The notes under the pieces: model-generated
The model's input: the letters and a program-made list of their open reading frames with translations, nothing else
Database searches by the model: none
What the model was told of the DNA's origin: nothing
Part shown: positions 105 through 29,839 of the stretch, in pieces
Numbering within the stretch: position 1 is the stretch's first letter
How the letters are laid out: the number at the start of each line of letters is the position of its first letter
Program-made: the position numbers and the translations under genes
From: a virus
IMG/VR virus record: IMGVR_UViG_3300036820_000054
Span: 1 to 36,547 of that record
Length of the DNA: 36,547 nt
Strand: one strand, 5' to 3'

Positions 105-1628
105 TCAGGCCGAGGACGCCGTGGTGTTGAGCAGGACGACGGGCGAGAGGGTCTGGGCGGAGCCGTTCTGGGGAGTCAGGGCCGTCTGCTGCCAGATGCG
201 CCCGTCCAGGCGCTCGATCACCCTGTAGGCCACCAGGTCAGAGGCGAACAGGTATTCCTCGGATGTCGCAATTTGCATGCTCTGCCGGTCGCCCAGGAGA
301 TACTGGCTCAGGTCCACGAAGGACAGCGCGCCCGCGGTGGCCGTGTTGCCGCTCAGCGAGGACGGGATCTTCTCGGAAACCACCAGCGGCCGGCCCATCA
401 GCGTGTAGTTCACACCGTCGCCGCTGCCGCCCGCCGGGGCGCCGACCGCCTGGAAGCTGTTCAGCATCAGGGGCGGCGCGACATTGGACGACAGGGACAG
501 CTGCAGGATCAGCGCGAACGCGTCCGGGGAGCACAGCCACACGGCGTTGCGCAGCGACGGCGGCCACATCCGGGTGAACATGGCTGCGATGTCGGCGAAC
601 GCGATCGTGTTGACGTCCCCGCTGACCTCGAGGGAAATCGCGGCCGGGGCGTTCAGGAAACCCTGGGGCTCTCCCACACCCGTCCCGCTGATGAAAGCCA
701 CATCCTCGAAGTAGGCCATCGCCTTGGGGAAGAAGATGTCGAACCACCGGTCGAGCGGGGTGATTGAGTCCTGGAGCAGTTCGTTCGGGATCGTCGTATA
801 AGCGGTCAACTTCCTGGCCTCGAGCTCGAACCGGCCGAACGTGGGCGCGGTCGCCGCGAGCGTCGCGCCTTCAGCCGTCCAGTAGGCCGCGACCCCGCCG
901 TACACCGAACTGGCGTGGCTGGTGTCATCGATGATCGGCAGCGGGACCCGCAGCGAGTCCATGGGGATCACCTGGGCGCGCGGCCGGACCACCGACTGCT
1001 CCAGGGCCAGCATCAGGATCTGGCTGCGCAGGACCTCCGGGACGAGGAACCCGCCCTCGGCCGGCAGGCGCTCGGACAGGGACGCGTTCTGCGGCCGTCC
1101 CGACAGCGCCTTGAACAGCCGCTCCTTGTCGGCCCGGATCGACGCGACGAGGTCACCGTTGCCGCTGTCCTTCGCGGCGTGCTCGGCCTTCCAGATGCGG
1201 TACATGAAGGCCCGCATGCTGTCCGCGAACGGCTCCTCATCGAACTCCGCGCCCATCGCCATGCCGCTGAACAGGCCCTGGTTGTCGGCCTGGAACTCGG
1301 CGTCCGGCATCCGGCGCTTTGCCTTGGCGATGATCCGCTGCGCCCGGGCGTCCCGCTTGCTGACCGCGGCCCCGCCCGGGCGGAAGCCGTTCTGCGGGGT
1401 CATGCCCTGCTCGGCCCAGGACTGGAGCACCTGCTGCTTGCCGAGCTCCAGCTGCTCCTTCATCTGCGAGGCCAGCTCCTGGCGCTGGTCCTCCATCGCC
1501 TTGGCGATGTAACCGGCGGTCAGTTCGCCGAACTCGCCGTTCTTCAGGATGTCGTTCATCCGGCCGCCGTCGTTCAGCAGCTCCTCCAGCTCTTCGGAGG
1601 TCTGGGGGATTTCAACCTGCCCCTTCAT
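105..1628 (-). CDS. Major capsid protein, HK97 fold (phage_capsid family)
   Basis: 507 residues, normal for an HK97-type capsid precursor. Residues 1 to about 110 are charged and helical (EELEELLNDGG, then a Glu/Gln/Lys-rich stretch), like the scaffolding delta domain removed by the prohead protease. The rest reads like the HK97 core: EGGFLVPEVLRSQIL (P-domain entry), YWTAEGATLAAT, KLTAYTTIPNELLQDS, and GTGVGEPQGFLNAP, which is highly typical of this family. The ATG at 1628 overlaps the TGA of the protease gene by 4 nt and has an AGAGGAG site. Self-assembles into the icosahedral shell. Position after portal and protease supports the call. Confidence 0.93.
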   Translation of the reverse strand: MKGQVEIPQTSEELEELLNDGGRMNDILKNGEFGELTAGYIAKAMEDQRQELASQMKEQLELGKQQVLQSWAEQGMTPQNGFRPGGAAVSKRDARAQRIIAKAKRRMPDAEFQADNQGLFSGMAMGAEFDEEPFADSMRAFMYRIWKAEHAAKDSGNGDLVASIRADKERLFKALSGRPQNASLSERLPAEGGFLVPEVLRSQILMLALEQSVVRPRAQVIPMDSLRVPLPIIDDTSHASSVYGGVAAYWTAEGATLAATAPTFGRFELEARKLTAYTTIPNELLQDSITPLDRWFDIFFPKAMAYFEDVAFISGTGVGEPQGFLNAPAAISLEVSGDVNTIAFADIAAMFTRMWPPSLRNAVWLCSPDAFALILQLSLSSNVAPPLMLNSFQAVGAPAGGSGDGVNYTLMGRPLVVSEKIPSSLSGNTATAGALSFVDLSQYLLGDRQSMQIATSEEYLFASDLVAYRVIERLDGRIWQQTALTPQNGSAQTLSPVVLLNTTASSA

Positions 1629-3250
1629 GCGAACGCTCCTCTCAGAGCTGATCGGATCTGCTCCAGGTCGAACCCGGAAAGATCGGTTTCGTCACTGTCA
1701 CCGGGCCCGTCGCCGGCGCTGTCTTCCGGCTCCCAGTCCGGGTTGACCTTCTTCATCGCCGCCTGCAAGGTGGCTGTGGCCTCGGCCTTGTTCGTCAGGC
1801 CCTCGGTCTGGTCCAGCCGGGCCAGGGCGTTGCGGACGCCCGCGGCGTTCGGCGGCGAGGACGGCGTGTACTTGTACGGCAGCGCCCACGCGGCCTGGGT
1901 CGTCTTGTCGCCCGCCTTCTTGCCGGCGCAGATCCCGCCGTAGAACGCGGCCGGGTCATCGGAGTCCGCACCCGCGGACCACGCTTTGGAGGCGTCCCAC
2001 GGGGAGTTGTCGACCTTGGAATCGGCACCGAGGAACGCGGCGAGCCCGGCGAGTTCCTCACGGATGACGGCCCGTACCTCGGCCAGCAGTTCGGCCCGGT
2101 CTTCCATGGGCTTGCCCGGAACGCTCTTGAGCTGCTCCCCGGCTGCGGTCCAGTAGTCGTGGTCGGTGTCGCCTTCGGGGCAGGCATCGCAGTCGCCGTC
2201 GCCGTCGGGGTCCCAGCGCTCGTGGTCGCCGTGAGTGCCGGGCTTGCCCGAGGCTGCCTGCAGTTCGTGGCGGATCAGCGCCAGCACGTCGTCGGCGGTC
2301 AGCCCCGCCAGTGCTGCGGCGGCGGCCTTCTTCCCCGTGCCGCCGCAGTCGGGGCACTGCCGGTTGCCCTCATCGATCTTGCCGGTGCCCTTGCACGTCG
2401 GGCAGTCCTGGCCGGTGGCGCTGTCCTGCGCGCCGTCGCCCTCGCCGCCGTCTGGCTCGGTGTGGCTGTGGCTGTGGTTCGCGTCGCCGTCGTGCGAATG
2501 CTCGTGGCTGTGCATGGCATCTCCGCCCTGGCTCGCGTAGGCAGGATGCGGGTGGGAGTGGGTGCCCTTCATCGGATCGTGACGGGCGGCGTCCTGGGGC
2601 TGCGGGAGGGCCGCGGTGGGCATCTCGCGGAGCCGGGCGGCGATCCGGCCCGGGACCGCGGTGAAGGCGGCCACGTCCAGGCCTGGTGGCAGCGCCGCCG
2701 CATCGCCGGCGACCTTGTCCGCCAGCCCGGCCGCAACGGCCTCGTCGGCGGTGTACCAGGTCTCGGCCTTCATCGCGTCACGCCAGGTGCCCGCGTTCCC
2801 GCGCCCGGAGCGGTCGGCGTAGATGTCGGCCAGGTTGGCGGACACCTTGTCCAGGGTCTCGGCCATCTTCGCCATCCCGGCCGCGTCGCCGATGCACCCG
2901 CCGCTGGCCTCGTGGATCATCAGCATCGACCCTGAGGCCGCGATGCGCTCCTGGCCGGCCTGGGCGATCACCGAGGCGATGGACGCGGCCAGCCCGTCGA
3001 CAGTCGTGGTGACGGTGCCCTTGTGCCCGCGGATGGCGTTGGCGATGGCGATGCCGTCGAAAACGTCGCCGCCACCCGAATTGACGTGAATATCCAGCTT
3101 GCCCTTCAGGCCGGAGATCTGGGCTACGAAGTCGCTGGCCGAGATCCCGTCGCTGAACCACCCGCCGCCGCCGATGTCGTCGTACACGTCGACTCTGGTA
3201 GCGCCGCCCTCGGCGCGGATCCGGCACTTCAGCGGGTACACGCTGCCCAT
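1625..3250 (-). CDS. ClpP-type (S14) prohead protease with scaffold-like C-terminus
   Basis: 541 residues. Residues 1 to about 185 form a ClpP-like serine protease: HVNSGGGDVFDG at 55-66, nucleophile Ser90 in GLAAS, His113 in MLMIHEA, and Glu163 in AETWYTADEA where ClpP has its third catalytic residue. It should cut capsid delta domains during head maturation. The middle is unusual: ten histidines between 231 and 263, two CxxCxGxG motifs (283-290 and 299-306) like DnaJ zinc centres, and an acidic DxDxDGD loop at 347-365. The C-terminal part (about 405-500) has the NSPWDASKAW and TPSSPPNAAG blocks I associate with actinophage protease/scaffold fusions. It overlaps the upstream 2H gene by 22 nt and the capsid gene by 4 nt. 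Confidence 0.9.
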   Translation of the reverse strand: MGSVYPLKCRIRAEGGATRVDVYDDIGGGGWFSDGISASDFVAQISGLKGKLDIHVNSGGGDVFDGIAIANAIRGHKGTVTTTVDGLAASIASVIAQAGQERIAASGSMLMIHEASGGCIGDAAGMAKMAETLDKVSANLADIYADRSGRGNAGTWRDAMKAETWYTADEAVAAGLADKVAGDAAALPPGLDVAAFTAVPGRIAARLREMPTAALPQPQDAARHDPMKGTHSHPHPAYASQGGDAMHSHEHSHDGDANHSHSHTEPDGGEGDGAQDSATGQDCPTCKGTGKIDEGNRQCPDCGGTGKKAAAAALAGLTADDVLALIRHELQAASGKPGTHGDHERWDPDGDGDCDACPEGDTDHDYWTAAGEQLKSVPGKPMEDRAELLAEVRAVIREELAGLAAFLGADSKVDNSPWDASKAWSAGADSDDPAAFYGGICAGKKAGDKTTQAAWALPYKYTPSSPPNAAGVRNALARLDQTEGLTNKAEATATLQAAMKKVNPDWEPEDSAGDGPGDSDETDLSGFDLEQIRSALRGAFA

Positions 3251-3849
3251 CGCTCACCTGCCCTGTCCGTCGCCGCCTGCTGAAGTGAGGTCCATGAGTC
3301 CCGCGCCGGCGCGTCCCCGTCCCCGGCGCTGAACGGGAACGCGTAACGCTGCGTCCCGTACTCAGCGCTCACCGCGGCGAACGTGACCGGCAGCGGCTCA
3401 AGCCGGCCGACCGGATCCGGGTCGCCCGGAGCCAGGTAGGACAGCGTCATGTGGGCCGTAAATCCGTGCTCCGAGGGGAGCGCGATGCCGCGGACGGCCA
3501 GCGCCAGCAGTGCGTCCTGCCGCAGCACGTCCAGCGCCGGGGAGTCCACCAGGGCCACGATCACGTCGCCCTCGCCGCCCCCGGTGAACCGGGCGTGGCC
3601 CGAGACCGTGGCAGCGACGGGAGGCCGGGCCGCAAGCGCGCTCGCCGCGGCAACCAGCACGAACTGGTCCACGTCTGCGCAGTCCCCGGTGTAGGCGACC
3701 GTCAGGTGGATGTCATCCGGGTCCAGGCCGCCCGGTATCGCCAGCTTCTCCGCCACGCCGGGCGGCGGGTACAGCGCGATCATGCACGAGCCTGAGTAGT
3801 CCGGCTGCGCGGCGTCCGCCATGGCGGCCAGCACGTCCCACGCGGTCAC
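3229..3849 (-). CDS. 2H phosphoesterase (2'-5' RNA ligase family)
   Basis: 206 residues with the two HxT motifs that define 2H phosphoesterases: His48-Leu-Thr50 (DIHLTVAY) and His133-Met-Thr135 (AHMTLSYL), spaced as usual. The family hydrolyses or joins 2'-5' or cyclic phosphodiester bonds in RNA or nucleotides. Starts with GTG overlapping the portal stop by 4 nt and runs 22 nt into the protease gene, so it is translated with the head proteins. Its role in a head operon is unclear: it could act on RNA, or on cyclic-nucleotide alarm signals as the 2H anti-CBASS enzyme Acb1 does. The latter is inference. Confidence 0.85.
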   Translation of the reverse strand: MTAWDVLAAMADAAQPDYSGSCMIALYPPPGVAEKLAIPGGLDPDDIHLTVAYTGDCADVDQFVLVAAASALAARPPVAATVSGHARFTGGGEGDVIVALVDSPALDVLRQDALLALAVRGIALPSEHGFTAHMTLSYLAPGDPDPVGRLEPLPVTFAAVSAEYGTQRYAFPFSAGDGDAPARDSWTSLQQAATDRAGERWAACTR

Positions 3850-5276
3850 CGGGCACCGGCCAGCGAGTTCCAGGCAGCGTTGCGCCGCAGTTCGTCAAGG
3901 GCGTCCCATGCCTGCGAGTCCCACCCGGCCCGCGCCCGCAGCTGCGCCACGGCGTCCTGCGCGCCCTGCCCGGCGTCGGCGGGAGCGGGCGAGCCAGGAG
4001 CACCGGGCGCCATCGGCGTGGTCCACCGCGGCGGCAGGGCCGGCACATCGGTGATGTGCAGGACCGGCTTCATGTCCGGCAAGCCCACGCACTGCAAGAC
4101 GTCGGCCTGGTCGTAACCCGCAGTAACGAGAGCAAGAGCAGCATTCGCCTTCGCGGTCAGCTCAAGATTGTCTTGCTCGCGATTTACGGGCATGGGATAT
4201 CTGAAGTCGAATTCATATCCCTGGCCGATATCGCCGAACATTGGCAGGAAGTGGAAATTGAGCACGTCCCGCCACCTGCGCAAACGCGGCGCCACTTTCC
4301 AGGCAGCAAAGATTTCCTCGCCTGTTTGCGCATTCGCCCGGTTAACGTCATCCACCAGCCCGGTCATGATCTTGTGCATGCCGAGCGCTTCCCGGATACG
4401 GTCCCCGCCCGTACTCATCAGGTTCGGGAAGTCCATGTCCTTCGGCGCGGTCGACGTGGGCACCCAGGTCACGCCTTCGAGCACCGCCACCCGGTGCGCC
4501 CGGGCCACGCCGCGGTGCGCGTCGCGCCACCGGTCGGTGAGCTCGTCCCACTCCTCGTCGGACACCCGGTGGTCCACCGACAGCACACCGTCCGGGCGGG
4601 CCGAGTTGGAGAAGAAGTTCCGGTTGTACTGCGACGCGTACTCAACCGCGTCGATCTCGGTCATCACCGACTGGATAGGCCCCGTGCCGCCGTAGGAGTC
4701 CAGCGGATCCGGCAGCGGGTTGTAGATCACCTCGTCCGCGTCCAGGGCGATGACCTCGCTGCCGCCCGGCGCGGTGTACAGCCAGCCCAGCAGGTACTTG
4801 TCCCGGTCGGGCACCGGCTGCATCCGGTCCGGGCGCACCGGCCAGATGCCGATCGGCATGTTCGCCGACTTGACGATCACCAGATGGCATTTGCCGGTCA
4901 GGTCCTGGTAGAGCTGGCTGATCTCGAACAGCCGGAACCTGCTCCAGAACTTGTTCGGCCGGGACAGCAGGTTCAGCGCCGGGTGCTGCAGCACCTGCCG
5001 GCGCGTGTCCGATCCCTGATCAGACGTGGAGTACCGCTGCCGGCCGTCCTGCTTGGCCGTCTGGAACAGCTGCCACTCCGGGCCCGCCGTCGCCGCGCCG
5101 AGAAGGGCGGCATTGCTGAACGTCGTCCCGTTACGCCCGTAGGCCCGCAGCATCGCCTCATCCGCGTTGCCCCGCGAGGACGAGGCGCGCGGCAGCTGCC
5201 AGATACCGGACTCGCCCATGGGGACCGGCGGCCCGGCCGGGTTCGCCAGCGCCAGCGCCTTGCCGATGAGGCTCAT
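3846..5276 (-). CDS. Phage portal protein, HK97 type
   Basis: 476 residues, a typical portal length. It is recognised by the block ending RLFEISQLYQDLTGKCHLV, followed by the PVRPDRMQPVPD and DADEVIYNPLPDPLDSYGG segments, NRNFFSNSARPDGVLSVD, and the late MTGLVDDVNRANAQTGEE segment, all characteristic of actinophage portals. The portal dodecamer forms the DNA channel at the unique capsid vertex and docks the terminase. ATG at 5276 overlaps the previous gene by 4 nt. The stretch at about 4130-4350 is less GC-rich than its surroundings. Confidence 0.92.
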   Translation of the reverse strand: MSLIGKALALANPAGPPVPMGESGIWQLPRASSSRGNADEAMLRAYGRNGTTFSNAALLGAATAGPEWQLFQTAKQDGRQRYSTSDQGSDTRRQVLQHPALNLLSRPNKFWSRFRLFEISQLYQDLTGKCHLVIVKSANMPIGIWPVRPDRMQPVPDRDKYLLGWLYTAPGGSEVIALDADEVIYNPLPDPLDSYGGTGPIQSVMTEIDAVEYASQYNRNFFSNSARPDGVLSVDHRVSDEEWDELTDRWRDAHRGVARAHRVAVLEGVTWVPTSTAPKDMDFPNLMSTGGDRIREALGMHKIMTGLVDDVNRANAQTGEEIFAAWKVAPRLRRWRDVLNFHFLPMFGDIGQGYEFDFRYPMPVNREQDNLELTAKANAALALVTAGYDQADVLQCVGLPDMKPVLHITDVPALPPRWTTPMAPGAPGSPAPADAGQGAQDAVAQLRARAGWDSQAWDALDELRRNAAWNSLAGAR

Positions 5277-5979: not shown

Positions 5980-6153
5980 ATGGAGGCACTCCGCAGCGAG
6001 AAAGTGACGGTGAATCTCACGGCCGACACGGCGCGCTGTCTTGACCGCTACGCCGATGACCACAACTGGACCCGCTCCACCGCGGCAGACGTCCTCATCC
6101 GGCGCGGTCTGGAAGCCGACAAGCGCGAGCAGGCCCGTGGCTCCGCTGCGTGA
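5980..6153 (+). CDS. Ribbon-helix-helix DNA-binding protein
   Basis: 57 residues: MEALRSEKVTVNLTADTARC, then LDRYADDHNWTRSTAADVLI and RRGLEADKREQ. This is the CopG/Arc/MetJ pattern: a short beta strand (KVTVNLT), helix A (DTARCLDRYADDH), a turn with Thr-Arg-Ser, and helix B (AADVLIRRGLE). RHH dimers bind inverted repeats. GAGGGGAA lies about 9 nt before the ATG. It overlaps the small terminase gene by 17 nt and sits just after two inverted repeats. Likely a local repressor of the packaging/head divergent promoters. Confidence 0.75.
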   Translation: MEALRSEKVTVNLTADTARCLDRYADDHNWTRSTAADVLIRRGLEADKREQARGSAA

Positions 6154-6496
6154 CGCCAGCGAACTGCTCTGGCCGGCCCTCGCGGAGACTCTCGCCAGCC
6201 TCGATCTCGGACCTGAGCACGCCGCGGCGAAGAGACTCGCCCAGCGCTACGCACAGGTGATCGACGGGCTCCCGGACCGCGGCGAGGGCACCAGCGAGCG
6301 CGCCCACGACCAGGCGTGGGCCCTTCGGTGGATCGGCCCGGAACTCCTGAGGACGCTTGATGCCCTCGGCGCCACCCCGGACGCCCAGGCGCGCATCAGC
6401 AAACTCGCCAAGGGCGGCGGGGGTGACAAGCCCGATGCCGCCCCGAGCCAGCTCGACCGGCTCCGCGCCTCCCGCGCTTCGCGCCGCACCCCGTAA
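6137..6496 (+). CDS. Small terminase subunit, actinophage type
   Basis: 119 residues from GTG 6137 (MAPLRDASELLWPALAETLA). It is alpha-helical; the block AKRLAQRYAQVID, then LRWIGPELLRTLDALGATPDAQAR and a Gly-rich KGGGGDKP tail, resembles actinophage small terminases that end in a 'LGPxLLxxLxxLGLTPxAR..KGG' pattern. Small terminase recognises the packaging site and loads the large subunit. The position between an RHH gene and the large terminase supports the call. A longer frame from 6041 would swallow the RHH gene and is rejected. Confidence 0.72.
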   Translation: MAPLRDASELLWPALAETLASLDLGPEHAAAKRLAQRYAQVIDGLPDRGEGTSERAHDQAWALRWIGPELLRTLDALGATPDAQARISKLAKGGGGDKPDAAPSQLDRLRASRASRRTP

Positions 6497-9107
6497 CATC
6501 CGCGGCAAGACCACCCCGCGCCTGTTCACCCCGCCCCTCCGGCCGCTGAGCCGGCGCACGAGCGACGGCTACGACGTGGCCGACTTCGCCGACATGATCG
6601 GCGAGCCGCTGCTGCCCTGGCAGCGCTGGGCCGTCATCCACGCGCTCGAGCTGCTGCCCGGCGGCGACTACCGGTTCCGCATCGTCATCATCGTAGTGGC
6701 CAGGCAAAACGGAAAGGCGCTAGACTGCGATGTGGACATTCTTACAGCAAACCGCGGCTGGACGACCATGGGCGAACTGGCCGAAGGCGATGAGGTCTTC
6801 CACCCCGATGGCCATCCGGTGCGAGTGATCGCAGCCCACCCGGTCAGGCGCGGGCGCGACTGCTACCGGGTCACGACTACGGACGGGCGCAGCGTCATCG
6901 CCGACGCCGGGCATCTGTGGACCGTCCAGGACGTGCGCCGGTACACGCGGAAAGGCGGCCGCGCTGAGAAGAAGGTCAGAACATACACATGGGAGACACT
7001 CACGACGGCCCAGCTCCTTGGGCGCGGACTGATGCGCGATGCCCGCGAGTGCGCCTACCGGCTCCCGCGCCAGTACGCCCTCATCTCCAAGCCGGCCAGC
7101 CTGCCGCTCGACCCCTACCTGCTCGGCATGTGGCTCGGCGATGGCAACAGCCGGGGCGCCACCATCTCCGCCGGCAGCCAGGATGTTGAGCAAACCGTGG
7201 CCGCAGTCGAGCAATGCGGCGCGCGAATCGTCTCGCTCAGGCGCGACCACACTGCGTGGCGCATCCACTTCTCAATCGCGGCCAGGCGTAGTGGATACGG
7301 CTTCGAATCCCTGTGCAAGAAGCTGGGCATCTGGGGAAACAAGCACGTCCCGGAGCTTTACCTCACGGCCGGCACGGAGCAGCGTCTTGCGCTGCTGCAA
7401 GGGCTGCTTGACAGCGACGGCAGTATCTACATCGGCGGCGGCGGATCAGCTCGGGTCGAGTTCTGCGTGGTGAACCGCCAGCTCGCCGACAGCGCGCTTT
7501 ACCTGATCCGGTCGCTCGGGTGGCGCGCCACCCTGATCGAAGCTCGCGCCACCATCGCCGGGCGGGACTGCGGGCCAAAGTACCGGGTCTGCTTCACGCC
7601 CGAGCAGGGCGAACTGGTACCGTTCCGGCTCCGGCGCAAGGCCGAGAAGATCCAGGCGCCCCGGTCGCGGAGTAATGAACGTCATGCCGTCAGCATCCGC
7701 TCAATCGAGCCCGTTGAGACGCGGCCGGTGCGCTGCATCACGGTTGACCGGGAGGACGGCCAGTTTCTCGCCGGCCGCGAACTGCTGGCCACCCACAACT
7801 CGACCGTAAAACGGGCAGTGACCCTCTGGCGCATGTATATGCAGCCTAAGTGCCGCATTCTGGGCATCGCTCAGGACCTTTCGCTGGCCCGTGAGCAGTG
7901 GCAGATGTGCCAGGACACCATTCACGAAACGGCCGCCCTCGAGGAGGAGTGGGGCCGCGTCCGCAATGTCAACGGCGACGAGATGTTCTGGACCGCCAAC
8001 GGCTCCCGGTACGCCATCAAGGCACCCAACCGCAAGGCCGGCCGCGGCGGGTCCAACGATGAAGTCAACATTGACGAGCTCGCGCAGCACTACGACTGGA
8101 AATCGTGGGCCGCCACCTCCAAGACCACGATGGCGAAGGCCAACAGCCAGATCTGGGCCATGTCCAACGCGGGCGATGATAATTCAGTCGTCCTGAACCA
8201 GCTCCGCGACGCGGCGCTCACCGGCCGGGACGAGACAATCGGCCTTTTCGAGTGGTCCGGCGAGTACGGCGAGGACGGCGACACCTACTGCGACATAGAC
8301 GACTGGGCGCAGATCGCCCAGGCCAACCCCTCACTCGGGTACAAGATCAGCGCCTCGGCCGTCCGCACCGCGATGGCCGACCCGCCCGAGATCTACCGCA
8401 CCGAGAACCTGTGCCAGCGCGTCCGCAGCCTCAATACCGCGATCGACATGAAGGCCTGGGGTGCCTGCGCCGACCCCGCTGTCACCATGGACTCCCTGCG
8501 CGACCGCCTCGCCGCGTGTTTCGACGTCGCCGACGACGACGGCCACGCAACCCTCGCCGTGGCCGCCAAGACACCCGAGGGGAAGGTCCGCGGTGAGATC
8601 GCCGCCTCGTGGCCATCCGTCGCGGCCGCGCGGCTGGAGCTGGCGCCCCTGCTCGAGCGGATCAAGCCGTCGGTCATCGCCTGGTACCCGTCCGGGCCCG
8701 CCGCGTCGCTCGCACCCGTCTTCCGCGCGCCCAAAGGCCGGCCCGTCAAGCTCGCCGACGCCGCACCCGGCCGCCCCCACTACGCAGACCTCACCGGAGG
8801 CGACGTCTGCGAGGTCTGCATGGGCCTGGCCAGCCTCGTCAAGGGCCGGATGATCCTGCACTCAAACGACCCGCTGCTCAACGCCCACCTCGGCGGCGCC
8901 AGCAGGATGAAAGTCGGAGGCAGGTGGCGCTTCGCGCGCAAACTGACGACCGGGAAGGACGCGAGCGCCGGCCCGGAGGGCGCGGAGGGTGAGGACGAGG
9001 TGCCAAAGGGGCACGTGGACGCGGCCTACGCGTTCGCCGGCGCCGTGCATGAGGCCCTCCTGCTGCCCGAACCGCGCAGGGCCCGCATCAGGATGCTCAG
9101 CGCGTAG
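6435..9107 (+). CDS. Large terminase subunit (TerL) interrupted by an intein
   Basis: The precursor is about 890 residues and the spliced product about 529. N-extein: LPWQRWAVIHALEL, then the Walker A strand VVARQNGK. The C-extein resumes with STVKRAVTLWRM, so splicing restores ARQNGK-ST. Walker B is VNIDELAQH (near 8064-8090). The C-terminal nuclease has acidic residues in CFDVADDDG and KGHVDAAYAF. TerL is the ATP-driven packaging motor and DNA cutter at the portal. Start: ATG 6435, with GGCGGGGGTG upstream and a 62-nt overlap with the small terminase; in-frame TTG/ATG at 6357/6360 would extend the overlap to 140 nt. ATPase activity should depend on splicing, since the intein splits the P-loop. 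Confidence 0.93.
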   Translation: MPPRASSTGSAPPALRAAPRNIRGKTTPRLFTPPLRPLSRRTSDGYDVADFADMIGEPLLPWQRWAVIHALELLPGGDYRFRIVIIVVARQNGKALDCDVDILTANRGWTTMGELAEGDEVFHPDGHPVRVIAAHPVRRGRDCYRVTTTDGRSVIADAGHLWTVQDVRRYTRKGGRAEKKVRTYTWETLTTAQLLGRGLMRDARECAYRLPRQYALISKPASLPLDPYLLGMWLGDGNSRGATISAGSQDVEQTVAAVEQCGARIVSLRRDHTAWRIHFSIAARRSGYGFESLCKKLGIWGNKHVPELYLTAGTEQRLALLQGLLDSDGSIYIGGGGSARVEFCVVNRQLADSALYLIRSLGWRATLIEARATIAGRDCGPKYRVCFTPEQGELVPFRLRRKAEKIQAPRSRSNERHAVSIRSIEPVETRPVRCITVDREDGQFLAGRELLATHNSTVKRAVTLWRMYMQPKCRILGIAQDLSLAREQWQMCQDTIHETAALEEEWGRVRNVNGDEMFWTANGSRYAIKAPNRKAGRGGSNDEVNIDELAQHYDWKSWAATSKTTMAKANSQIWAMSNAGDDNSVVLNQLRDAALTGRDETIGLFEWSGEYGEDGDTYCDIDDWAQIAQANPSLGYKISASAVRTAMADPPEIYRTENLCQRVRSLNTAIDMKAWGACADPAVTMDSLRDRLAACFDVADDDGHATLAVAAKTPEGKVRGEIAASWPSVAAARLELAPLLERIKPSVIAWYPSGPAASLAPVFRAPKGRPVKLADAAPGRPHYADLTGGDVCEVCMGLASLVKGRMILHSNDPLLNAHLGGASRMKVGGRWRFARKLTTGKDASAGPEGAEGEDEVPKGHVDAAYAFAGAVHEALLLPEPRRARIRMLSA
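6717..7799 (+). mobile_element. Class 3-type intein with LAGLIDADG homing endonuclease
   Basis: 361 residues inserted between Lys and Ser of the terminase Walker A motif. It begins with Ala, not Cys or Ser (ALDCDVDILT...GWTTMGEL is block A), and ends in Thr359-His360-Asn361 before Ser+1. Trp68 follows His66 in block B (GHLW), Cys340 sits at block F position 4 (VRCITVD), and Thr359 at block G position 5. These three residues are the W-C-T signature of class 3 inteins, which use the block F Cys as first nucleophile. Two dodecapeptide motifs, YLLGMWLGDG (Asp142) and LLQGLLDSDG (second acidic residue Asp232 or Asp234), mark a LAGLIDADG endonuclease that looks intact. Confidence 0.92.
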
Positions 9108-9449: not shown

Positions 9450-9791
9450 CTACCACTTCGTGACGGGGCGCGGTGCAGGATCAGGTGCTGGTCGTGCGGA
9501 TGTCTTGGCGGCGTTGCCTTCCTGCGCAGTCTTCCGCTCATGGCAACGGCAACTGCCCTGGCCGGTGCAGAGCATTCGCAGGTTGGCGAGGTCGTGGGTG
9601 CCGCCTTGTGAGCGAGGGATGGCGTGGTCGCACTGCAGGCGCGGATGGTGGTGGCCGCACTCCTCGCAGTAACCGCGGGCACGGCGCCGGGCCTCATCCC
9701 GGTTCCGCAGGTATGCGGCGTCACCGTAGGTCTCGCCGCTTCTGCGGCGATCTTCTGGCGAGTTCCTCCACGCCACAGCGCTAGTCCTCAT
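9450..9791 (-). CDS. HNH endonuclease
   Basis: About 113 residues. The HNH core is CEECGHHHPRLQCDHAIPRS with GGTHDLANLRMLC and then CRCHERKT: zinc cysteines CxxC and CxxxxC, catalytic His in CDHAIP, Asn in LANLRML, final His in CHE. Small HNH proteins next to terminase genes (HK97 gp74 and relatives) work with TerL to cut cos DNA during packaging, so that role is likely. The ATG at 9791 overlaps the upstream stop (TGATG); a GTG at 9794 is also possible. Last gene of the leftward array. Confidence 0.85.
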   Translation of the reverse strand: MRTSAVAWRNSPEDRRRSGETYGDAAYLRNRDEARRRARGYCEECGHHHPRLQCDHAIPRSQGGTHDLANLRMLCTGQGSCRCHERKTAQEGNAAKTSARPAPDPAPRPVTKW

Positions 9792-10786
9792 CACACGGCG
9801 ATGTCCAATACTCCCTGCTCTGCCTTGGCAGCGATCCGCTCGCGGGCAGATGCCTGCACCGGCACGAACGAGTCAACGATAAGCCTCAGTTGGTCCATGT
9901 CCTCGCCAGCCATGCCGACGAGCCAGTTGCAGGCCGCGTGGCAGAGCCCACGCCGGCAGGCAGAACAGGAGTCGGTGCGCTCGCCGCCGGGGCAGCAGGA
10001 ATGATCGTGGTCGATATGGATGTTGCCGGTACGATCCATCAGCCGGTCGCAGAGATAGCAGTGTCCAGCCTGTGCGTCCCATATGCGAGCCCACTCCGCA
10101 GGGCCGTCATGTGCACGGCCCCAGGAGCGGACGCGAGTTGTCGGCGCACCCTCACCAAAGAGCGCCCCCTGTGTCGCTGCCCTCGCGGCAATGCGCGCTT
10201 TGGCGGCTTCGCTGGCACGCTCAAAGTTGGCGGCAATGACCAGCATGAGGTCGGCGTCATCCTCGCCGATGCCTATGAGCAGATTGCAGGCGTCATGAGC
10301 GAGACCGCGGCGGCAGGCTGGGCACGACTTGTCGTTCTTCGGCGAGTCGCAGCAGTCGTGGTCATGGTCAACCCTGACCTTGTCGCCGGGCAGGAAGGCT
10401 ATCTGGCAGAGATAGCAGCAGCCGTTCTGAGCTTCCCACGTCCGCGCCCACTCGCTTGGGCCGCCGTGCCCATTCTGACTCCGCTGCTGCTGCCTGCGAC
10501 GTTTCTGATCCGGCGTCTTGCGGCGCTGTTGCTCACGCCAGTACGCACGGACCTTGTCCAGGTTGGCTGCCTGCCAGAGCTTCGCGGCGGCCAGCCTCTC
10601 TTCACGGTGATCCTGGTAGTACTGGCGGCTCCGCGCGTGCTCGTGGTCGATCTTGGCGTAATAGCGCCGCATCCTGGCCGCGTTAGTGCATTCGCTGCAA
10701 TGTGACATCCGGCCGTCGCGCTTAGTGCGATCCTTGCCGAATTGCTCAAGCGACTTCATTGCGCCACATCGGGGACACCGTTTCAC
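9791..10786 (-). CDS. Tandem recombination endonuclease VII protein (two domains)
   Basis: 331 residues. Residues 1-33 form a zinc finger (CPRC at 4-7, CSEC at 30-33). Residues 40-105 are a basic helical linker. Two endonuclease VII domains follow. The first has CYLC at 124-127, VDHDH at 139-143, CPACRRGL at 155-162 and Asn168 in ACNLL; the second has CYLC at 243-246, IDHDH at 258-262, CSACRRGL at 274-281 and Asn287 in ACNWL. The family cuts branched DNA such as Holliday junctions. Most members carry one domain; a double copy suggests internal duplication, perhaps an intramolecular dimer. GTG start with only a weak upstream site. Confidence 0.9.
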   Translation of the reverse strand: MKRCPRCGAMKSLEQFGKDRTKRDGRMSHCSECTNAARMRRYYAKIDHEHARSRQYYQDHREERLAAAKLWQAANLDKVRAYWREQQRRKTPDQKRRRQQQRSQNGHGGPSEWARTWEAQNGCCYLCQIAFLPGDKVRVDHDHDCCDSPKNDKSCPACRRGLAHDACNLLIGIGEDDADLMLVIAANFERASEAAKARIAARAATQGALFGEGAPTTRVRSWGRAHDGPAEWARIWDAQAGHCYLCDRLMDRTGNIHIDHDHSCCPGGERTDSCSACRRGLCHAACNWLVGMAGEDMDQLRLIVDSFVPVQASARERIAAKAEQGVLDIAV

Positions 10787-25996: not shown

Positions 25997-26138
25997 TTTC
26001 CGTCCTCTTTGGTGAGGTTTCGCGGGTTTTCCCGCAGCGGGGTCGCTGCGGTTAGTGCATGTGAGACGCCTGAGAGGCGCCATTGGAGTACGTGCTACGT
26101 AAATTTATCGGATGTTCCCTTGCGTTACCCTGGGTTAC
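25997..26138. promoter_or_regulatory. Divergent promoter region of the secreted protein and serine recombinase
   Basis: 142 nt, AT-rich around 26095-26115. Holds TACGT-GC-TACGTA near 26089-26102, and TTACCCTGGGTTA flanked by CTTGC/GCAAG at 26119-26145, reaching into the recombinase start. Serine integrase attP sites usually lie beside the gene, so this region is a candidate, but no core can be defined from one sequence. Confidence 0.4.
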
Positions 26139-27566
26139 ATGCAAGCCGGCCCGCAGAATCTCAGCGCCGCCATCTACACACGCCTGTCCAAAGGCTTTGG
26201 CCGCAGCATAGAGGAGCAGGAAGCCGAGGACCGGGCCGAATGCGGGCGCCTGGGCTGGGGCATCGCCGATGTCTACTCGGACGCATCCCGGTCCGCGTCC
26301 CGGTTCGCCACGAAGGGCCGCGAGGACTGGGCGCGGCTGCTGGCCGACCTGGACTCCGGGCGGTTCGGGGTGCTGATGCTCTGGGAGCCGAGCCGCGGCG
26401 ACCGGGACGCGGAGTCGTGGCTCGGCCTGCTGAACCTGTGCCGCCGGCGCGGCGTGAAGATCCACATCACGTCCCACGGCCACACCTACGACATGACCCG
26501 GCGCCGCGACTGGCGGGCCCTGGCCGACGAGGGCATCGACTCGGCCGACGAGTCAGAGAAGATCAGCGAGAGGATCCGGCGCGACGTCCGGGCCAACGCC
26601 GCGCTGGGCCGCCCGCACGGCAAGACCCCCTACGGCTATGAGCGGATCTACGACTCCCGCACCAAGCAGCTGGCCGAGCAGCGGCCCGACCCCCGGACCG
26701 CACCCGTCGTCGCCGAGATCTACTGGCGGGTGGGCTCGGGCGAGCCGGTGCTTGCTATCGCCCGTGACCTGAACGCCCGCGGCGAGCCCGCGCCGGGCGG
26801 GAAGCAGTGGTCCCGGGTGATGATCCGCAACATCGCCACCAGCCCCGTCTACGCCGGCCGGCGGGTGTGGAAAGGCGAGCAGATCCCCGGCATCTGGCAG
26901 CCGCTGGTGGACGAGGCGGCCTGGCACCGGGCCAAGCGGGTGCTCACCGACCCGTCCCGGGCCCGGGTGCGGCCCACCCGCGCCCGGCACCTGCTGTCGT
27001 ACATCGGGCAGTGCGGCGAGTGCGGCGCCCCGCTCGCGGCCGCCCCCCGCGGCGCCAAGCGCAACTTGTACGGGTGCAGCGAGCGAGGGTGCGTGTTCAT
27101 CCGCGAAGACTGGCTCGATGACGAAGTGACCCGGCGCGTGATCGCCATCCTGTCCAGTGCGGAGATCTACCGGGCCCGGCAGGGCGCCAGCGACGCCGCC
27201 GTCCTGGCCGCCATGGCCGAGGCCGACAAACTCCAGGAGCGGCTTGACGAGATGGCCGGCCAGGCGGCCCGCGGCGAGATCGAGCTGCGGGCCCTGTCGA
27301 TCGGCGAAGCCGAGCTGCGGCCGAAGATCAGGGCGGCGCACGACCGGGCGAACGCGGCGGCGGTGCCGCTGGAGATCCGCGACCTCGCTGAGCACCGCGA
27401 GTCGATGCCCGACGTCTGGCTGACCATGCCGCTGGCCCGCAAGAAGCAGCTGCTGCGGACCCTCATCGCCGACGGGGCACTGTGCGTGAAGGTCCGCAAG
27501 CCGCAGCCGGGCGGTGTGCGGGGGAAGTTCGACCCGGCGAGGGTGGTCACCGAGCCGGGGCGCTAG
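26139..27566 (+). CDS. int: Large serine recombinase (phage integrase)
   Basis: 475 residues from ATG 26139; ATG 26112 is also open. N-terminal resolvase domain: AAIYTRLSKG with nucleophile Ser17, FGVLMLWEPSRGDRDAES with the catalytic Arg cluster. The 'recombinase' domain begins near RPHGKTPYGYERIYD and includes WSRVMIRNIATSPVYAGRRV; a zinc ribbon (CGECGAPL...YGCSERGC) and a coiled-coil region (EADKLQERLDEMAGQ) follow. Such enzymes join attP and attB in one direction and need a directionality factor to excise. No Shine-Dalgarno is visible, so translation may be leaderless. At 475 residues it is at the shorter end for the class but has every domain. Confidence 0.92.
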   Translation: MQAGPQNLSAAIYTRLSKGFGRSIEEQEAEDRAECGRLGWGIADVYSDASRSASRFATKGREDWARLLADLDSGRFGVLMLWEPSRGDRDAESWLGLLNLCRRRGVKIHITSHGHTYDMTRRRDWRALADEGIDSADESEKISERIRRDVRANAALGRPHGKTPYGYERIYDSRTKQLAEQRPDPRTAPVVAEIYWRVGSGEPVLAIARDLNARGEPAPGGKQWSRVMIRNIATSPVYAGRRVWKGEQIPGIWQPLVDEAAWHRAKRVLTDPSRARVRPTRARHLLSYIGQCGECGAPLAAAPRGAKRNLYGCSERGCVFIREDWLDDEVTRRVIAILSSAEIYRARQGASDAAVLAAMAEADKLQERLDEMAGQAARGEIELRALSIGEAELRPKIRAAHDRANAAAVPLEIRDLAEHRESMPDVWLTMPLARKKQLLRTLIADGALCVKVRKPQPGGVRGKFDPARVVTEPGR

Positions 27567-28512: not shown

Positions 28513-28782
28513 ATGCAGCAGAATGGCCATGGGCGCTCGTTCACGATCCCGGCGCGGAAGTACGAAGGGCATCCGGAGCATTCCCGCCGGACGCTGTTCG
28601 CCAAAGACAGGGAGATCCGGCGTCAGTGCGCCAGGGCCGATCAGGTACTGAGCACGCTGGAATTCATCGCCGCCACCGCGGACGGCAAGACCGGGGGCGC
28701 AGATCCCCAGTGGCAGGTAGCGGCAATCCTCGAAGCTCTGACCCCAGAGATCCGGCGCGCTATCGGCGGTCGCCATGAGTGA
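28513..28782 (+). CDS. Small protein co-transcribed with the tyrosine recombinase
   Basis: 89 residues. N-terminus is basic (HGRSFTIPARKYEGHPEHSR); the rest is helical (ADQVLSTLEFIAATADGKTG; VAAILEALTPEIRRAIG). No Shine-Dalgarno; probably leaderless from TTATCT. Its stop overlaps the integrase start by 8 nt. Position suggests a helper or regulator of recombination, but no excisionase motif is seen. Confidence 0.65.
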   Translation: MQQNGHGRSFTIPARKYEGHPEHSRRTLFAKDREIRRQCARADQVLSTLEFIAATADGKTGGADPQWQVAAILEALTPEIRRAIGGRHE

Positions 28783-29839
28783 ACCGCTCATCGGTGAGAT
28801 CGTCCCGGCCGGGCAGGTGCCGGCCGCTAGTGACCGTCCGCCCAGCCGGCCCGAGCGGCTAGCGTGGCGATGGGTCACCACCAAGCGCTCACCGCACACC
28901 CGGTACAGCTACGGCCGGGACATCGGCATCCCGGTGCCGCGGGCCGGCCGCATCAAGCCGCCGGAGCTTGCGGCAGCCAAGGCGCCAGACTGGCTCGGCT
29001 TCTGCCGGGCTGCGGGCATTGACCCGCTCGGGGCCGTCCGCGAGGAACACGTCGCGGTGTGGGCCCGGGGCATGGAGTCGGCTGGCCTGTCGGCGCCGAC
29101 CGTGGCCCGCAAGCTGTCGGCCGTCTCATCCTGGTACGGCTGGCTCAAGCGCAACGGCCATGTGGCCGTCAACCCGGCTGCCGAGCTGGCCCGGCCGTAC
29201 GTGGACGCAGACACGTCCAAGACGCCGGGCCTGACCAAAGCCCAAGCGCTCGCGCTGCTCGCCGCGGCCGACGGCGCCAGGGGTCCGCAGGGCAAGCGGA
29301 CAGCCGCCCTGGCCGCGCTGCTGCTCTACACCGGGGCGCGCGTCAGCGAGGTCTGCTCGGCGTCGCTGGCCGACCTCGGGATGGACCGCGGGCACCGGGT
29401 GCTGTGGGTCACCAGGAAGGGCGGCGCACGGCAGGCGCTCGTGCTGCCGCCGCCCGTGCTCGAGCGGCTGGACGGCTACCTTGCAGCGAGAGGCGACCTT
29501 GAGCGGCTGCCCGCGTTGCGTGGGACCGCGGGCCAGTCACGGTCACTGCTGGCCACCTATGCGGGCAAGCCGCTGGACCCGGCCGATGTGTGGAAGTTGC
29601 TGCGCCGGCTCGGGAAAGCCGCGGGGCTGCCGCCCGAACTCGTCAGCCATATGGGCCCGCACTCGATGCGGCACTCGTTCGCCACGCTCTACCTTGACGC
29701 TGGCGGCAATCTGCGCGACCTGCAAGACGCGATGGGCCACAAGGACCCGCGGACGACGCGCCGCTACGACCGGGCCCGTGGCACACTGGACCGCTCCCCC
29801 GGGTACACGCTCGCGGCGTACCTCGCCGACGAAAGCTAG
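28775..29839 (+). CDS. Tyrosine recombinase (phage integrase family)
   Basis: 354 residues. N-terminal core-binding domain at about 35-135 (TRYSYGRDI; TVARKLSAVSSWYGWLKRNG). The catalytic domain has the full set: Arg189 (TGARVSEV), Lys215 (WVTRKGGA), His296 and Arg299 (PHSMRHSFATLYLDAG), His322 (MGHKD) and nucleophile Tyr331 (RRYDRA). Resembles XerC/XerD-like actinobacterial integrases. No arm-binding domain is clear at the N-terminus. Sits 1.2 kb from a serine integrase, so one of the two may integrate the phage and the other may resolve multimers or be left by a second element. Its stop shares CTAG with the facing gene. Confidence 0.92.
   Translation: MSEPLIGEIVPAGQVPAASDRPPSRPERLAWRWVTTKRSPHTRYSYGRDIGIPVPRAGRIKPPELAAAKAPDWLGFCRAAGIDPLGAVREEHVAVWARGMESAGLSAPTVARKLSAVSSWYGWLKRNGHVAVNPAAELARPYVDADTSKTPGLTKAQALALLAAADGARGPQGKRTAALAALLLYTGARVSEVCSASLADLGMDRGHRVLWVTRKGGARQALVLPPPVLERLDGYLAARGDLERLPALRGTAGQSRSLLATYAGKPLDPADVWKLLRRLGKAAGLPPELVSHMGPHSMRHSFATLYLDAGGNLRDLQDAMGHKDPRTTRRYDRARGTLDRSPGYTLAAYLADES

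Follow-up and report, generated by a model that had tools for sequence, protein, structure and literature searches.

In one viral contig (IMG/VR record IMGVR_UViG_3300036820_000054; the window analysed here is the whole stretch of 36,547 nucleotides), the Walker A motif of the large terminase is interrupted by a long in-frame insertion, which raises the question of what the insertion is and whether it could be removed from the protein and spread between phages. It is very probably a full-length class 3 intein with a LAGLIDADG homing endonuclease, of the TerL1-a type, set in the Walker A loop of the large terminase, that would both splice and home.

Host gene and insertion site

The open frame of the large terminase spans 6357-9107 (+). 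Within it, the ATG at 6435 is the more likely start codon because that Met (MPPR) is conserved in two intein-free homologues, viral contigs L011 and L012, which gives an N-extein at 6435-6716 (+) and a C-extein at 7800-9107 (+). The extein was identified as a large terminase by a match to phrog_9 (E=4.7e-49) and by a match to the terminase family phrog_36964. The C-extein includes a Walker B-like motif, VNIDE (8064-8078, +), and its alignment with the intein-free homologues runs end to end, with identities of 89% to L011 and 84% to L012. The terminase gene adjoins portal, protease, and capsid genes; the terminase side (6041-9107, +) is divergent from these genes (105-5276, -). Between the portal and protease genes, 3229-3849 (-) encodes a protein that matches both RNA ligase and head maturation protease families.

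In translation, the insertion is 361 residues long (Ala1-Asn361; 6717-7799, +) and lies between Lys and Ser of ARQNGK-ST, with the junctions reading ARQNGK-ALDCD...LLATHN-STVKR and with no stops or frameshifts across the 361 codons. The Walker A half-motif ARQNGK (6699-6716, +) is thus broken after its Lys, and Ser+1 of the C-extein (7800-7802, +), the predicted second nucleophile, would become the Walker A Ser once the protein is spliced. The earlier note had placed the insertion exactly between these two residues, and the boundaries were fixed independently by the intein-free alleles, in which the motif is uninterrupted (ARQNGKSTIKR and ARQNGKSTLKR; viral contigs L011, L012). Because both read through ARQNGKST at the site, no residue has been lost or duplicated and the insertion is exact. 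When the intein was searched against the L011 and L012 records, no match was found in either.

Splicing domain and class 3 assignment

Intein residue 1 is Ala, and a Cys/Ser nucleophile is absent there. The translation gave Ala as the first residue and Trp68, Cys340, and Thr359 the same numbers as in the earlier note, which had read these residues as the W-C-T set of a class 3 intein. Their positions were assigned by alignment to the solved mycobacterial DnaB inteins MchDnaB1 (6RIX) and MsmDnaB1 (6BS8), which stood in as references for the intein of mycobacteriophage Bethlehem. The MchDnaB1 residues concerned are His65, Trp67, Cys124, and Thr143, with Cys124-His65-Thr143 forming a Cys-His-Thr triad (PMC7664689). 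Block B, His66-Leu-Trp68 (6912-6920, +), aligned with His65/Trp67, placing Trp68 at block B position 12; Cys340 (7734-7736, +), the predicted first nucleophile, paired with Cys124 at block F position 4; and block G, Thr359-His360-Asn361 (7791-7799, +), put Thr359 opposite Thr143 at block G position 5, with His360 and Asn361 as the last two intein residues and Asn361 predicted to cyclise. The blocks read 'DAGHLW' vs 'DAAHQW' (B), 'PVRCITVD' vs 'PVRCVEVD' (F), and 'ATHN' vs 'PTHN' (G) in this intein and the solved class 3 inteins, and His66, Trp68, Cys340, Thr359, and Asn361 aligned with both 6RIX and 6BS8.

Conservation was assessed in an alignment of 88 related inteins that had been collected by endonuclease-motif patterns and not by the W-C-T residues. 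Cys340, Thr359, His66, and Asn361 were each present in 88/88, Trp68 in 87/88, and His360 in 85/88. The class 3 call therefore stands, as the W-C-T residues fall in blocks B, F, and G of solved class 3 inteins and are near-invariant in the family; the outcome that would have spoken against it, a Cys340 or Trp68 lying outside blocks F or B, was looked for and both residues were inside.

Similarity searches gave the same nearest relatives. With phmmer against solved structures, the Mycobacterium chimaera and M. smegmatis class 3 DnaB inteins were the top matches (E=8.6e-20, 4.2e-19, and 1.3e-18), and a profile of 44 relatives against the PDB placed class 3 DnaB inteins at the top (E=4e-42), followed by PI-SceI (E=2e-19). 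The Pfam model Intein_splicing (PF14890) had no match in the intein, although alignment to 6RIX shows the splicing domain plainly; the PF14890 model is insensitive to this intein. An AlphaFold model built on a 44-sequence alignment had a pLDDT of 93.6 (single-sequence prediction was poor, with a pLDDT of 39). It covers the class 3 DnaB inteins with a TMt of 0.80-0.85 (normalised to those inteins), in keeping with a Hint fold for the splicing domain, and matches PI-SceI over its full length with a TMq of 0.72-0.75 (two best matches). MchDnaB1 and MsmDnaB1 share the splicing domain and the Cys-His-Thr/Trp active site but differ in being mini-inteins of the DnaB helicase in which the endonuclease domain is absent.

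Endonuclease domain and predicted activity

Two LAGLIDADG motifs were located, LLGMWLGDG at residues 135-143 (7119-7145, +; Asp142) by alignment to the PI-SceI endonuclease domain and LLQGLLDSDG at residues 226-235 (7392-7421, +; Asp234) by a match to Pfam LAGLIDADG_3 (E=2.1e-6). These motifs with Asp142/Asp234, the Pfam match, and the full-length structural match to PI-SceI identify the domain as DOD-type. Among the relatives, the acidic residue at D142 was kept in 83/88 and those at D232 and D234 in 88/88. The earlier suggestion that both motifs look intact was borne out, with the catalytic Asp142 and Asp234 and neighbouring conserved positions retained, and the sequence is consistent with an active homing endonuclease.

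From solved and assayed relatives, a sequence of steps can be proposed. Cys340, activated by His66 and Thr359, would attack the Lys-Ala1 bond; the N-extein would then be transferred to Ser+1, Asn361 would cyclise, and the ester would rearrange to a normal Lys-Ser peptide bond, by which GKS and, with it, the packaging ATPase would be restored. Terminase alleles that lack the intein would be cleaved by the endonuclease at their unbroken Walker A codons, and the intein would spread by homing. In this way we infer splicing, DNA cutting, and ATPase inactivity before splicing. That packaging would wait on splicing follows soundly from the Walker A insertion site, and Kelley et al. 2016 (PMC5050341) have already concluded the same of other terminases. 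A redox-sensitive mycobacterial DnaB intein has been reported (PMC6195587); that the present intein acts as a regulated switch, for instance redox-sensitive through Cys340 and delaying DNA packaging until late-assembly conditions suit, is a very doubtful extension.

Other readings of the insertion were weighed. It may be a class 3 intein at a late stage of the homing cycle, still splicing but with an endonuclease that has already lost its activity, and retained only because exact loss seldom happens. Decay of the endonuclease is frequent among inteins and catalytic acids alone are no proof of activity, but here the two catalytic Asp residues are conserved along with Lys209 and the motif helices, the endonuclease part was modelled with high confidence, and intein-free alleles (L011 and L012) exist as candidate targets, so that this reading is unlikely though worth keeping in mind. 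Doubt over the terminase as a whole could come from the nature of the record, a linear viral contig that carries integrase genes and may derive from a prophage, in which a broken intein would leave a dead terminase. Such degradation is highly improbable given that the reading frame is open through the 361-codon intein and both exteins, every catalytic residue is retained, and the C-extein aligns over its whole length with intein-free homologues.

Still less probable, to the point of being nearly negligible, is a class 1 or class 2 intein in which the W, C, and T residues occur by chance. Class 2 inteins likewise start with Ala, but they require a strong +1 nucleophile, classically Cys, where this intein has Ser; the invariance of Cys340 and Thr359 at class 3 positions across the 88 relatives and the class 3 DnaB inteins as nearest solved splicing domains also argue against either class.

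Relatives, distribution, and neighbouring genes

Relatives of the intein were found with tblastn in 766 phage records, 723 of which cover >=80% of the intein, so the insertion is not a chance event. A regular-expression tally showed that at least 51/87 relatives interrupt a GK-S/T motif, with a GK-Ala junction and Ser/Thr at +1; this count is a minimum, as the expression missed the window intein itself. Over ~200 residues around the site, the intein-free terminases of L011 and L012 are 94% and 89% identical to that of the window. The nearest inteins, in L001 (IMG/VR; 63-64% identity) and L013 (a Pseudonocardia MAG contig; 63%), occupy a K-T terminase site like the present one but lie in terminase exteins only 41% and 47% identical, respectively, over the ATPase region of ~200 aa. 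More distant pairs were L014 (extein 25%, intein 57%) and L017 (extein 27%, intein 52%).

This sporadic distribution points to lateral movement of the intein, because the closest exteins are without it while inteins 52-57% identical sit in terminases 25-27% identical. Gain and precise loss in the closest lineage would not be told apart by presence and absence alone, since the two nearest inteins are also in the nearest intein-bearing exteins compared (L001 and L013). Sliding identity to L011 and L012 revealed no clear co-conversion tract flanking the insertion. Base composition is not decisive because the intein's GC3 (0.83) is slightly under that of the structural genes (0.87-0.93) yet over that of the endonuclease VII gene (0.75).

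In the L013 genome, intein-like matches were present on four contigs (C219, C180, C61, and C644), which suggests several intein-bearing genes or prophages in this Pseudonocardia MAG. Related inteins, 49-50% identical to the window intein, were also seen in L015 (3001-4029) and L016 (3001-3999), with a C-terminal TAN in place of THN, Cys at +1, and a site that is not a P-loop.

At least 1701 class 3 inteins are known, the count in a 2020 survey, 82.5% of them with LAGLIDADG motifs (PMC7891396), and in mycobacteriophages no protein hosts inteins more often than the terminase (PMC5050341). In the TerL1-a type the insertion follows the Walker A Lys and precedes Thr (Kelley et al. 2016, PMC5050341), and the present intein falls in it by its position between the Walker A Lys and Ser (ARQNGK-ST) of a phrog_9 large terminase. 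It shares with the TerL1-a intein of mycobacteriophage Contagion the Lys-Ser/Thr site, Ala1, the W-C-T set, and the LAGLIDADG endonuclease, at 43% intein identity, but comes from another phage lineage, with a terminase ATPase region only 24% identical and with Ser at +1 where Contagion has Thr. The TerL1-b intein of mycobacteriophage Baka likewise shows ~43% identity along its whole length and has the W-C-T set in the same loop, but is inserted one residue downstream (GKG-...S) and its first residue is not Ala. For Baka TerL1-b and Bethlehem TerL1-c, splicing and cutting of intein-free partner DNA were shown by assay (PMC5050341). Precedents exist for its insertion site, its class, its endonuclease, and its host protein alike, and the intein is an ordinary example that leaves the picture of inteins and terminases unchanged. 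Its value is as a further class 3 terminase intein with well-defined boundaries for which close intein-free alleles exist, and the pairing of intein and intein-free alleles would be a convenient system for homing tests.

Immediately downstream of the terminase, the opposite strand carries a small HNH endonuclease gene (9450-9794, -) and, beside it, a gene for an endonuclease VII-like protein (9791-10786, -) that is apparently made of two copies of one unit. Further along the window, 26112-27566 (+) encodes an integrase/recombinase of the serine type (phrog_95; it also matches a DNA invertase), and ~1.2 kb from it, 28775-29839 (+) encodes a second integrase (phrog_1), probably of the tyrosine type.
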